A stretch of 48,374 nucleotides of DNA, from contig JAGRFY010000052.1 in the NCBI GenBank assembly GCA_020445765.1, forward strand, positions 1 through 48,374. The letters run 5' to 3'. The DNA is from Rhodocyclaceae bacterium (lineage in GTDB: Bacteria > Pseudomonadota > Gammaproteobacteria > Burkholderiales > Rhodocyclaceae). Below are positions 34,774-48,342 of the stretch, in pieces; the stretch's first letter is position 1, and the number at the start of each line of letters is the position of its first letter. Both the position numbers and the translations under genes were made by a program. The notes below the pieces were generated by a model. The model saw nothing but the letters and a program-made list of their open reading frames with translations, was not told the origin of the DNA and did no database searches.

Positions 34774-34801
34774 GGGGGACATTCCCCACCCCATTCCCCA
34801 C
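34774..34801. promoter_or_regulatory. Probable activator site upstream of the gspE promoter
   Basis: GGGGGA-CAT-TCCCCA (34774-34788) is an inverted repeat, followed by a second TTCCCCAC (34794-34801) 12 bases after the first. The same arrangement, GGGGA-N-ATTCCCCAC then TTCCCCAC, occurs at 48247-48272. Both copies lie 74-89 bases ahead of a -24/-12 promoter, which is the usual place for an NtrC-type enhancer. The binding protein is inferred to be the regulator encoded at 44713-46152. The rest of the gene-free stretch 34580-34971 holds the helicase promoter, the -24/-12 element and the gspE ribosome site. Confidence 0.55.
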
Positions 34802-34868
34802 ATTTGAGGAATTCGGATATTGAGTGGGTAAACGATAAGAAACCGATACTTAGCTTGGTGTCGAGGCG

Positions 34869-34884
34869 TGGCATGTTTCTGGCT
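34869..34884 (+). promoter_or_regulatory. Sigma-54 (-24/-12) promoter of the gspE operon
   Basis: TGGCATGTTTCTGGCT matches TGGCACGNNNNTTGCW at all but two fixed positions, with GG (34870-34871) and GC (34882-34883) exactly 10 bases apart. Transcription would start near 34895, about 77 bases before the gspE ATG. A sigma-54 activator gene lies at the far end of the same locus. Confidence 0.7.
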
Positions 34885-34971
34885 TCGGGGTCCTGGCCAT
34901 GTTGATAATCGGGGGTCAGCAAATGCCAAGGATTCAGTTCAGGGGAGGCTGCGGCGGTAGCGGAGGGCGCC

Positions 34972-36675
34972 ATGCGGATGAATCGAGCCGCTGAACTCGC
35001 ACCCGAGTTCGCGTTCGATTCCGACGCCATCGCCGCCGCCGTCGAGGCGTCGCTCGGCTCGGACCGAAGCGCGGTCGAGTTGCTCGAGGAAAGCGTCGGC
35101 CTGCCGCCGGCGGATTTCGTCGAGCAACTTGCCCGCGCCCTGCGTTATCGCGTCGCCGACAGCGCCGAACTCAATCGCGCCGTTCCGTTGTTCGAGCGTC
35201 TCGCTTTCACCGAATGCCAGAGCCGAAACTGCATCGTGCTCCGACTCGCCAGTGGCGAGGACTGTCTGGTGCTGGCGGATCCGCTGGACCGCGACCTCAC
35301 CGAATGGGCCGATCTGCGCTTTCCGGGGCTAGAGCGGCGGATTGCGCACCACGCGGATCTGGGCGCCTATCTCGGTCGCTTCGAGGACAACGTACGGGCG
35401 ATGGAAGCCCTCGGCGCAAGCGGGCCCCAACGTGCGGATGGTGACGAAGAGGACGGCGAGGTGCTGTCGCTGGCGCGCATCAGCGAGGACGCCAGCGTCG
35501 TCGTCAAGCTCGTCAATTCGACGATCTACGACGCCCTCAAGGCGCAGGCCAGTGACATTCACCTGGAAATGGCGCCGAGCGGCCTGCAGATCAAGTACCG
35601 GGTCGACGGCGTGCTCAATGCCGCCGGCAGCGTCAGCGGCGTCGAGCAGGCCGAGCAGGTCATCTCGCGCATCAAGATCATGGCCGAGCTCGACATCGCC
35701 GAACGCCGCGTGCCGCAGGATGGCCGCTTCAAGGTCCGGCTGAAGGGCCGCAGCGTCGATTTCCGGGTGTCGGTGATGCCGAGCATCCATGGCGAGGATG
35801 CCGTCCTGCGCGTCCTCGACAAGCAGGATCTCGCCCAGGCACAGCGCGGCGTGCTGATCGACACGCTGGGCTTCGACGGCGATACGCGGGCGCTTCTCGG
35901 CCGGCTCGCCGGAGAGCCCTATGGCATGGTGCTGGTCACCGGACCGACCGGCAGCGGCAAGACCACCACCGTCTACGCGATGCTCTCGGAGATCAACAAC
36001 GGTCACGACAAGATCATCACGATCGAGGATCCGGTCGAGTACCAGCTGCCCGGCGTGCTGCAGATCCCGGTCAACGAGAAGAAGGGGCTGACCTTTGCCC
36101 GGGGCCTGCGCTCGATCCTGCGGCATGATCCGGACAAGATCATGGTCGGCGAGATCCGCGATGCCGAGACCGCCCAGATCGCGATCCAGTCGGCGCTGAC
36201 CGGGCACCTGGTGTTCACGACGATTCACGCCAACAGCGTGTTCGACGTGATCGGGCGCTTCGCCCAGATGGGCGTGGACGCCTACAGCTTCGTCGCCGCT
36301 CTCAACGGCATCCTGGCCCAGCGGCTGGTCCGCCTGGTGTGCCGCGACTGCATGCGGCCGGCCAGTCCCGATGCGGAGGCACTGCGCGAGTCCGGGATCG
36401 ATCCGGACAGCGCCATCGATTTCGAATTCGTCGAAGGCGAGGGCTGCGGTCGCTGTCGCGGCAGCGGTTATCGCGGACGTTCGGCGATCGCCGAGATCCT
36501 GCTGCTCGACGACGAGCTGCGCCAACTCATCATCGACCGTGCGCCGATCGGGCAGATCAAGGCCTCCGCCCGGCGCAAGGGCACCCGTCTACTACGCGAA
36601 TCGGCCGTGGACCTGGTACGCGCCGGACGCAGCACGCTTGCGGAGATCAACCGTGTCACTTTTGTTTCGAAGTGA
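34972..36675 (+). CDS. gspE: Type II secretion / type IV pilus assembly ATPase GspE
   Basis: The 567-residue cytoplasmic hexameric ATPase powers pseudopilus assembly. It has an N-terminal MshEN-like region (about 25-130), then the core with LVTGPTGSGKTTTVYAML (Walker A), the Asp box around ITIEDPVEYQ, MVGEIRDAETAQIA (Walker B), HLVFTTIHANS (His box), and a four-cysteine zinc motif CRDC...CGRC near residues 460-505, which is present in GspE and PilB and absent from PilT. GGAGGG (34962-34967) precedes ATG 34972; a second ATG two codons later is also possible. It is first in a run of overlapping genes to 42937 and is preceded by a sigma-54 promoter. Confidence 0.94.
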   Translation: MRMNRAAELAPEFAFDSDAIAAAVEASLGSDRSAVELLEESVGLPPADFVEQLARALRYRVADSAELNRAVPLFERLAFTECQSRNCIVLRLASGEDCLVLADPLDRDLTEWADLRFPGLERRIAHHADLGAYLGRFEDNVRAMEALGASGPQRADGDEEDGEVLSLARISEDASVVVKLVNSTIYDALKAQASDIHLEMAPSGLQIKYRVDGVLNAAGSVSGVEQAEQVISRIKIMAELDIAERRVPQDGRFKVRLKGRSVDFRVSVMPSIHGEDAVLRVLDKQDLAQAQRGVLIDTLGFDGDTRALLGRLAGEPYGMVLVTGPTGSGKTTTVYAMLSEINNGHDKIITIEDPVEYQLPGVLQIPVNEKKGLTFARGLRSILRHDPDKIMVGEIRDAETAQIAIQSALTGHLVFTTIHANSVFDVIGRFAQMGVDAYSFVAALNGILAQRLVRLVCRDCMRPASPDAEALRESGIDPDSAIDFEFVEGEGCGRCRGSGYRGRSAIAEILLLDDELRQLIIDRAPIGQIKASARRKGTRLLRESAVDLVRAGRSTLAEINRVTFVSK

Positions 36676-37462
36676 ATTCTGCGCCGCGCTGGCACCGGGC
36701 CGGATCGAGCTGACACGGCTCGCCTACGGCCTGCGCCGCCGGGTCGAGGCGTGGCGCCGAGCGGATCTCAGTCCCGCTGCCGGCGATGCCGGCGGCTGGC
36801 GCTTCGTGCTGGAGGCGCTGTCGTCGATGCTGCAGGGCGACCGGCCGGTGCGCGGGCGCCTGAAGGTCGTGCTGTCGAGCCACTGGGTGCGCTTCCAGGT
36901 GATCCCGTGGAATCCCGAGATCAATTCCCCGTCCGAGTTCGCCGGCTACGCCAGGGCGTGCTTCGAGCGGGTCTATGGTGAACTGGCCAGCGGCTGGGAG
37001 ATTCGCTTCGACGAGGCGCCATCCGGCCGCGGCCGGATGGCCTGCGCGATCGACCGCGAACTGCTCGACGGCATCACCCGCGTCACCCGTGAATCCGGCT
37101 GTCGCCTGGCCGGCGTCCAGCCCTATCTGATGCACGCGTTCAATCCGTTGGCGATGCCACTGGGGCGGCGCAACTTCCTGTTCGTCCTGGCCGAGCCCGG
37201 CCGCGTCACGCTCGCCGCAGGGAATCGCGGCGGCTGGGCGTCGGTGCGCAATTGCTCCGTCGATGTCGACGAAGCCGGCCTGCGGGCCCTGGTCGAACGC
37301 GAACTGAACCTGCTCGGCGGCAGTGAGCAGCCGGAAGTGATCATCCATGCACCCCGCATCGCGGCGGAACAGCTCGAAGGGATCGAGGCACTGGGATGGA
37401 AACTGATCCCGGCCGGCGGTACCTCGGACTACGCGATGGCCTGGGGAACGGGGGCACCATGA
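36653..37462 (+). CDS. PilM/GspL-like actin-fold assembly protein
   Basis: The 269-residue protein begins MSLLFRSEFCAALAPGRIELTRL (GTG start at 36653, overlapping the end of gspE by 23 bases). The pattern of an RI-L entry, a KVVLSSHWVRFQVIPW strand and a later GRVTLAAGNRGGWASVRNC strand is that of PilM and the cytoplasmic part of GspL, which bind the ATPase and the next protein. It is shorter than PilM (about 350), and ATP-binding motifs are not obvious, so nucleotide binding is doubtful. Position directly between gspE and a PilN-like gene supports the assignment. The upstream part of the frame is a shadow of gspE. The stop overlaps the next ATG as ATGA. Confidence 0.7.
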   Translation: MSLLFRSEFCAALAPGRIELTRLAYGLRRRVEAWRRADLSPAAGDAGGWRFVLEALSSMLQGDRPVRGRLKVVLSSHWVRFQVIPWNPEINSPSEFAGYARACFERVYGELASGWEIRFDEAPSGRGRMACAIDRELLDGITRVTRESGCRLAGVQPYLMHAFNPLAMPLGRRNFLFVLAEPGRVTLAAGNRGGWASVRNCSVDVDEAGLRALVERELNLLGGSEQPEVIIHAPRIAAEQLEGIEALGWKLIPAGGTSDYAMAWGTGAP

Positions 37463-47923: not shown

Positions 47924-48140
47924 GCGCCAGGGCGCCGCCCAAAGCCATTCCGTCCGGCTGGCACCGTATGTGCATGAGCGGATCCAGGGTCGTCCGGACT
48001 GACGCATCGACCAGGGGGCCATGATGCGTCGATCTCCGTCCGGACGGCCCTACTCTCCCTCCCGCATGCCTTGGCGCGACGGGCCGTCCCGGCCCGATTC
48101 GCAGCGCCACCTGCCATTCAAGCGGCAACGATGGCCGCCT

Positions 48141-48158
48141 GAATGGCATATGCCATTC
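48141..48158. repeat. Perfect 18-base palindrome between gspG and the right end
   Basis: GAATGGCATATGCCATTC is a perfect inverted repeat. TGCCATTCA also occurs at 48112-48120, so three copies of this half site lie within 48 bases. It is 228 bases upstream of the gspG promoter and 177 bases upstream of the rightward promoter. It may be a protein binding site distinct from the TTCCCCAC element. Confidence 0.75.
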
Positions 48159-48246
48159 ATGTAAGAGCAGTTCCTACTTGGTTTCCGGATGTTTCCCCAA
48201 CAGTGGGGTTCGCCCAAAACCCAATCCTGGGGTGTGGGGGCGGATG

Positions 48247-48272
48247 TGGGGAGATTCCCCACGCTTCCCCAC
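48247..48272. promoter_or_regulatory. Probable activator site, second copy of the TTCCCCAC element
   Basis: TGGGGA-GAT-TCCCCA (48247-48261) is an inverted repeat followed by TTCCCCAC (48265-48272), 10 bases after the first copy. It repeats the arrangement seen at 34774-34801 and lies 74 bases ahead of the -24/-12 promoter at 48327. Additional GTGGGG and TTCCCCAA half sites lie at 48192-48240. Confidence 0.55.
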
Positions 48273-48326
48273 CCCCGGATGCGTCCGAATCGTCGAAATA
48301 CCCGCTTACTCAGCGCTCCGGGGTCG

Positions 48327-48342
48327 TGGCATGGATGCTGCA
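48327..48342 (+). promoter_or_regulatory. Sigma-54 (-24/-12) promoter pointing out of the window
   Basis: TGGCATGGATGCTGCA matches TGGCACGNNNNTTGCA at all but two fixed positions, with GG (48328-48329) and GC (48340-48341) 10 bases apart. It shares CGTGGCATG with the gspE promoter (34867-34875). Transcription would start near 48353 and run off the window, so a co-regulated gene should begin just to the right. Confidence 0.65.

Follow-up and report, generated by a model that had tools for sequence, protein, structure and literature searches.

What does the sigma-54-type regulator encoded within an atypical secretion locus of a Rhodocyclaceae bacterium control, and which gene lies just beyond the point at which the available sequence ends? 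The question is raised by a stretch of 48,374 nucleotides (hereafter the ‘window’), which makes up the entire contig 54 of a draft genome of 4.84 Mb (210 contigs, 94% completeness). Towards its right end, gspE, PilM/PilN/PilO-type genes, a secretin gene, three genes in pseudopilin positions, a kinase gene and a regulator gene follow one another rightwards; gspF and gspG then run leftwards, and a divergent promoter stands at the contig’s right end. The original prediction held that the regulator binds a shared upstream element and switches on the gspE operon, gspGF and a gene outside the window. We consider it highly probable that the locus encodes an MnxS/MnxR sigma-54 regulon, in which a single operator joins an oxidase, MnxG, to its secretion system.

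Candidate sigma-54 sites were judged by their GG-N10-GC spacing and by mismatches to the -24/-12 consensus. Three such sites lie where they had been claimed, at 34869-34884 (plus strand, TGGCATGTTTCTGGCT, before gspE), 47908-47923 (minus strand, AGGCACCGAGCTTGCT, before gspG) and 48327-48342 (plus strand, TGGCATGGATGCTGCA, before the expected mnxG), each with exact spacing and two consensus mismatches. The mnxG site does not differ between the window and three congeners, the gspE site is kept with one change in congener G001, and GG-N10-GC and CTTGCT of the gspG site are kept, as compared by eye, in the window and three congeners. A further conserved site, TGGCACCGTATGTGCA at 47959-47974 (plus strand), absent from the original list, keeps TGGCA and TGC unchanged across the window and three congeners. 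The six -24/-12 matches in the window include three in the stretch of some 500 bp from gspG to the contig end and two far from the locus (10670 and 11133). The genome carries a single sigma-54 gene, and by spacing and consensus, conserved position and the presence of rpoN these are predicted sigma-54 promoters.

Upstream of the two rightward promoters lies an element that recurs far beyond chance. The shared motif, GGGGANATTCCCCAC, is matched perfectly only twice in the 4,843,490 bases of the genome, each time at a place proposed, and the tandem form TTCCCCAC-N2-6-TTCCCCAC likewise occurs exactly twice in the genome, at both rightward promoters, with none in the control. At gspE the predicted operator (34775-34801, plus strand) consists of GGGGA-CA-TTCCCCAC and a second TTCCCCAC 12 bp further on; at mnxG (48194-48272, plus strand) it is an array of half-sites ending in GTGGGGAGATTCCCCACGCTTCCCCAC. 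The distance of 74-89 nucleotides first given for this element needed correction: counted from the T of the -24 element, the palindrome centres lie 88 nt (gspE) and 73 nt (mnxG) upstream, and the second TTCCCCAC copy starts 75 nt and 62 nt upstream, respectively. In its exact form the motif is neither scattered at random across the genome nor without conservation in related genomes. With up to three mismatches to GGGGANATTCCCCAC the window stands at chance level (5 matches versus 4.64), so exact forms were used; the relaxed form GGGGANNTTCCCCA gave 21 matches versus 9 control matches in 61 genomes, its specificity largely lost. A single mismatch admits only one further site in the genome (G000:C35:73193-73207). 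Across 199 genomes of the family, a pattern combining the tandem box with a promoter, whose gap limit excluded gspE and which missed G002 and G003, matched twice, at the mnxG promoters of the window’s own genome and of G001, and not at all in its control.

Five other genomes of the genus (G001-G005) were searched. Orthologs of the kinase are 79-90% identical in G001, G002 and G003, and no close ortholog was found in G004 (39%) or G005. The mnxG promoter TGGCATGGATGCTGCA is the same in the window, G001, G002 and G003, and half-sites precede each copy, the palindrome of G003 being the shorter GGGGATTCCCC. Counted from the -24 T, the GGGGA half lies at -79 both in the window and in G001, at -89 in G002 and at -76 in G003; in G002 the array has shifted whole by exactly 10 bp outward, which is one helical turn and keeps the phase. 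Of these three, only G001 has the gspE region assembled; there, upstream of gspE, both TTCCCCAC copies and the promoter are kept and the left GGGGA half is lost, so that the conserved core at gspE is, from this comparison, the predicted tandem half-site.

The same congeners identify the gene beyond the right end, by synteny in G001, G002 and G003, as an MnxG-like manganese-oxidising multicopper oxidase, in line with the original prediction of a regulated gene outside the window. Behind the promoter, G001 and G002 encode a protein of 2026 residues whose start looks, by eye, like a signal peptide. The single NCBIfam match of the G001 protein is MnxG (NF041487; 2461.2 bits, E=0), and because this falls below the equivalog cut-off of 3100 bits we call the protein MnxG-like; it has no Pfam match at 0.001, and its best match among solved structures is 9bxa, in a chain named MnxG. 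The oxidase gene of G003 is fragmented, with a 424-residue piece directly behind the promoter. We infer from this synteny that mnxG lies downstream in the source genome as well. An MnxG-like gene is found at E <= 1e-50 in 8 of the 199 family genomes. One of the loci examined (L245, G014:C106) holds two tandem mnxG-like genes besides the C66 copy in that genome, with a sigma-54 site, without palindrome, before the second.

The operator can be followed into other genera. The set of mnxG loci comprised the best 80 of 432 relatives from named genomes, two of which had too little upstream sequence for counting palindromes; GGGGA-N1-5-TCCCC lies upstream of mnxG in 53 of the 78 eligible loci, at 1.80 per kb versus 0.013 elsewhere. 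A sigma-54 site scoring at least 13 precedes mnxG in 74 of the 80 loci, versus 41 of 1462 background windows. The six loci below this score are L084, L095, L096, L105, L154 and L161, the contig of L096 starting inside the gene. Between -120 and -45, GGGGA/TCCCC half-sites accompany 73 of these 74 sites (253 of 3718 random windows), and two or more accompany 64 of the 74 (28 of 3718). The spacing is narrow: 49 of the mnxG palindromes have their centres 57-59 nt before the -24 T, and in two loci outside the 80-locus set (G089 and G209) the distance from box to promoter is 66 nt, as in other Aromatoleum loci.

Much the same arrangement stands before gspE and before a second type of oxidase gene. 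The gspE loci number 65, of which 63 come from the 80 and two were fetched besides; a site scoring at least 13.5 lies within 2.6 kb upstream in 61, mostly 635-826 nt away and before a small receiver-domain gene, and 59 loci have gspE promoters with half-sites in front at repeated positions. Two or more half-sites accompany 64 of 72 mnxG sites and 54 of 60 gspE sites scoring at least 13.5 in the 80 loci, versus 7 of 40 others. A composite of box, spacer and promoter, scanned in the window’s own genome and 16 that have an mnxG locus (17 in all), occurred once in each of nine and never in the control; by coordinates, the matches are eight mnxG promoters and one mcoA-like promoter. The latter belongs to P. 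monteilii; behind it come a frame of 1141 codons with domains of multicopper oxidases and then a gene that, judged by eye, is SCO1-like, together an mcoA-like pair. McoA-like genes above 1000 bits number 18, from 15 of 20 genomes; 13 of the 18 have a site of at least 13, with half-sites in all 13.

The regulator gene (44713-46152, plus strand) encodes a receiver (PF00072), a sigma-54 AAA+ domain (PF00158) and a Fis-type helix-turn-helix (HTH; PF02954), and the protein groups with MnxR-type regulators of Pseudomonas (FastTree local support 0.998). The MnxR sequence of P. putida GB-1 is not among the loci in the tree, so the name MnxR is given from gene order. Twelve of the 15 mnxG genomes hold a regulator at least 57% identical to that of the window, all grouping with it; the exceptions are Ideonella (50%), a Syntrophobacteraceae metagenome-assembled genome (43%) and Caldimonas (38%). 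The mnxG sigma-54 site of at least 13 is present in 11 of the 12 genomes with an MnxR-clade protein and in none of the three without. All MnxR-clade sequences in the tree share the HTH motif RDM(L/M)RYRI, where neighbouring clades have RDT. Members of these neighbouring clades (for example L047, L042, L046 and L181) are about 50% identical to MnxR, carry GAFTDA and RDT, and in several cases stand beside an MnxS-like kinase; in Ideonella (L217, G067:C63), two GGGGA..TCCCC palindromes lie directly before such a regulator (8431-8467). Another locus (L073, G008:C42:70000-89000) combines an MnxR-clade regulator, a kinase, an 873-residue multicopper oxidase, gspF and GGGGAAATTCCCC/GGGGAATTTTCCCC boxes in a genome with no MnxG match at 1e-50; perhaps this is the same regulon with another oxidase.

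The adjacent gene (43167-44720, plus strand) encodes an MnxS-like sensor histidine kinase with HisKA (299-355) and HATPase_c (411-509) domains; kinases encoded close to MnxR-type regulators of other genera share 35-41% identity with it. The regulator of P. monteilii and P. plecoglossicida has two kinases and a divergent gspG-gspF pair next to it, and two kinases are likewise present in P. putida 17522; the former arrangement fits the mnxS1, mnxS2, mnxR operon described for P. putida GB-1 in passages of PMC11409713. The predicted fold of the kinase has a mean pLDDT (predicted local distance difference test) of 68, and the matches shown from the PDB are mostly kinase cores or kinase-containing sensors, so we make no claim on the sensor’s ligand. 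An identity with PrsK/PrsR of XrtA/PEP-CTERM systems, which likewise pair an NtrC-type regulator with a kinase, was rejected, the window proteins reaching 356.4 of 502.6 and 83.4 of 300 bits and thus falling below the NCBIfam cut-offs.

In other genera, related regulators are found together with these half-sites before mnxG and gspE operons. The proposal that the regulator drives the gspE operon and the gene behind the right promoter is supported by conservation and co-occurrence, its binding to TTCCCCAC being predicted from comparison. From these observations we suggest a model in which the locus would serve Mn(II) oxidation by this Rhodocyclaceae bacterium. The MnxS-like membrane kinase would sense a signal outside the cytoplasm and phosphorylate the MnxR-type regulator, which would bind TTCCCCAC/GTGGGGAA half-sites, both palindromic and repeated in tandem at a spacing of about one helical turn, some 60-95 nt upstream of the -24/-12 promoters, loop to RNA polymerase-sigma54 and open it at gspE and mnxG. 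The regulated units would be gspE to the pseudopilins, mnxG (for the secreted oxidase) and probably gspGF, such that enzyme and exporter would be made together. The sequences themselves show the motifs, their confinement to two places in the genome, their conservation and narrow spacing, the synteny and the relatedness; we infer each step of the model (binding, phosphorelay, sigma-54 transcription and export of MnxG by this system), along with a signal such as Mn(II). The latter is proposed by analogy, because PmnxG and PmcoA of P. putida, which have predicted sigma-54 sites, need Mn (passages of PMC11930936); the inducing signals of bacterial Mn(II) oxidation are described as unclear in passages of PMC9765421.

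Several observations weigh against this model. In the window, -24/-12 matches taken by themselves are at chance level (six versus a shuffle mean of 5.2; 30 shuffles, range 1-12). Genome-wide, in 11 of the 17 genomes scanned, the loose palindrome is no more frequent than the reversed control, so our claims rest on position and the composite pattern, which was itself not found in 8 of the 17. Among the 80 mnxG loci, 65 are titled Pseudomonas and hence are not independent; the strict palindrome is missing in 25 of the 78 eligible, and of nine control words for the palindrome, six gave 0 and AGGGG 1 upstream of mnxG, with TGGGG (7) and CCCCA (24 sites) also raised there, the sites of these last two being assumed to come from the flanks of that array of half-sites. 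In Ramlibacter an MnxR-clade regulator is present, with neither box nor promoter at mnxG, and G005 has an mnxG fragment without a close kinase ortholog. The gspE promoter could be compared in one congener alone (G001), and mnxG is not assembled in the window’s own genome, the contig stopping before the expected start codon. Promoters of gspG are weak, scoring at least 13 in 1 of 48 loci, and no half-site lies within 130 nt upstream of gspG in G001 or G002; it may be that the mnxG box serves gspG too, from further away. Finally, a GAFTGA loop defines sigma-54 activators (bacterial enhancer-binding proteins), and the loop reads GAFTDA in the window regulator and the MnxR clade (GAYTDA in one member), as it does in neighbouring clades, where outgroup activators have GAFTGA (GSFTGA in one).

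The alternative that survives best, which we regard as unlikely, accepts the control of the operon as proposed and holds that the secretion system exports some other cargo, its link to MnxG being a shared signal. The gene products themselves lend it some room, since the inner-membrane genes are pilus-like (PilN/PilO). Rightwards on the plus strand, the locus holds a gspE-like secretion ATPase (34972-36675; PF00437, TIGR02533 at 478 bits, cut-off 630); a gene in the GspL/PilM position (36671-37462, limits approximate), without a family match, whose open reading frame is kept in G001 and G002; a PilN-like inner-membrane component (37396-38016, start approximate; PF05137, a weak match of 21.9 bits versus a cut-off of 22.8); a PilO-like component (37979-38545; PF04350); a gene in the GspC/PilP position (38547-39065), named from position alone and without a family match; a secretin (39062-41467; PF00263); and three genes in pseudopilin positions (41464-41943, 41940-42317 and 42314-42937), all kept in G001 and G002, of which the first has prepilin and GspG-family matches and the third no Pfam match. 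On the minus strand lie a gspF-like gene (46249-47433; TIGR02120 at 281 bits, cut-off 424) and gspG for the major pseudopilin (47437-47871; TIGR01710), whose 171.8 bits exceed the type II cut-off of 88.85. GspE (478/630), GspF (281/424) and GspD (158/351 bits) miss their equivalog cut-offs, for which reason we class the system, from its sequences, as atypical and like both type II secretion systems and type IV pili (T2SS/T4P-like).

Set against another cargo is the company that these genes keep, as the secretion genes are found close to mnxG all the way from Rhodocyclaceae to Pseudomonas. Among the mnxG loci retrieved, those of Pseudomonas have gspE-pilM-pilN genes, and often gspGF, near mnxG; the operator in the window lies directly before gspE, whereas most Pseudomonas and Aromatoleum loci have a small receiver-domain gene in between, two P. 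resinovorans-type loci being direct. According to the title of de Vrind 2003, P. putida GB-1 requires a Gsp-related pathway, which we take to be the one named xcm, to secrete its Mn-oxidising factor, and this would to that extent be alike as a secretion pathway for an Mn oxidase. In Geobacter sulfurreducens, OmpB is reportedly linked with an atypical type II system (Mehta 2006, again by title), a likeness in that an extracellular multicopper protein goes with such a system. OmpB and MofA are described as homologous in passages of PMC5566968.

A second alternative, that boxes and promoters are real and a paralogous NtrC-type regulator acts on them in place of the adjacent one, strikes us as very unlikely. 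Candidates abound, since all 15 mnxG genomes hold eight or more related regulators (E <= 1e-60) and members of the neighbouring clades share about 44-52% identity with the regulator of the window; it is, however, the MnxR clade that tracks the mnxG promoter in the genomes counted above, adjoins gspGF or mnxG in several genera and has an HTH motif unlike that of its neighbours. Least credible of all is that the TTCCCCAC repeats bind another factor, such as a repressor or structural protein, with the genes using sigma-70 and the -24/-12 matches coincidental, as their chance-level frequency in the window would allow, for the mnxG site is unchanged in three congeners and enriched across the 80 loci, with 49 palindromes within a narrow range of distances from it, and in Pseudomonas MS-1 Mn oxidation is lost in an rpoN insertion mutant, for which complementation is reported (passages of PMC11409713).

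The MnxS/MnxR regulon may have a further member between gspG and mnxG, where a conserved 26-pair hairpin (47985-48055) is a candidate for a sigma-54-driven small RNA, its plus strand, transcription and function being conjectural. Its support comes from four related sequences, the window and three congeners, in which eight pairs are doubly compensated; none of 500 shuffles reached eight, and slid versions gave at most one. The fold z-score, computed on the minus strand, is -3.9. In all four sequences the site at 47959-47974 precedes the hairpin by 12 nt, gapless and with differing intervening bases, and from this distance to the -12 element a transcript would start at the base of the stem. Each of the four genomes has a single exact match to the hairpin core, which lies at this locus, and G004 has none; matches with one mismatch occur elsewhere in G002, G003 and G005, seven in all, and six of these, when searched, gave no strong match to the model. 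The hairpin model (R1), run against 46 sources, matched strongly only the four sequences from which it was built (next E 0.038), so that among the sources searched the hairpin is found in this genus alone. Rfam at gathering thresholds gave tRNA alone in six sources, and a terminator scan of L247 (1550-2150) found none. In the window the sole such Rfam match is a tRNA gene at 30626-30699 (plus strand). A wider reading, which we hold tentatively and as possible rather than probable, is that one old MnxR regulon of Rhodocyclaceae, Aromatoleum and Pseudomonas makes the oxidases and their dedicated exporter as a unit, and that in this genus it includes a structured small RNA (~47985-48055), transcribed by sigma-54 and with its 5' end at the stem base of the covarying hairpin.

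In P. putida GB-1, control of mnxG and mcoA by MnxS1/MnxS2-MnxR was reportedly described by Geszvain and Tebo in 2010. As that system appears in passages of PMC11409713, PMC11930936 and PMC8218464, the window shares with it an MnxR-clade regulator, an MnxS-like kinase and a sigma-54 promoter before an MnxG-like oxidase; it differs in having one kinase, not two, and in bringing the mnxG promoter together with the regulator and the secretion genes at a single locus. The passages on MnxR covered here describe no MnxR operator and no control of secretion genes, and the regulatory mechanisms and physiological functions of Mn oxidation are called unknown in the abstract of PMC11930936. A predicted MnxR operator with narrow spacing would make it possible to test other genomes for the Mn-oxidation regulon by sequence, and the regulon predicts that the exporter is induced along with the enzyme. 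It would also link an uncultured Rhodocyclaceae system to the genetically tractable Pseudomonas.

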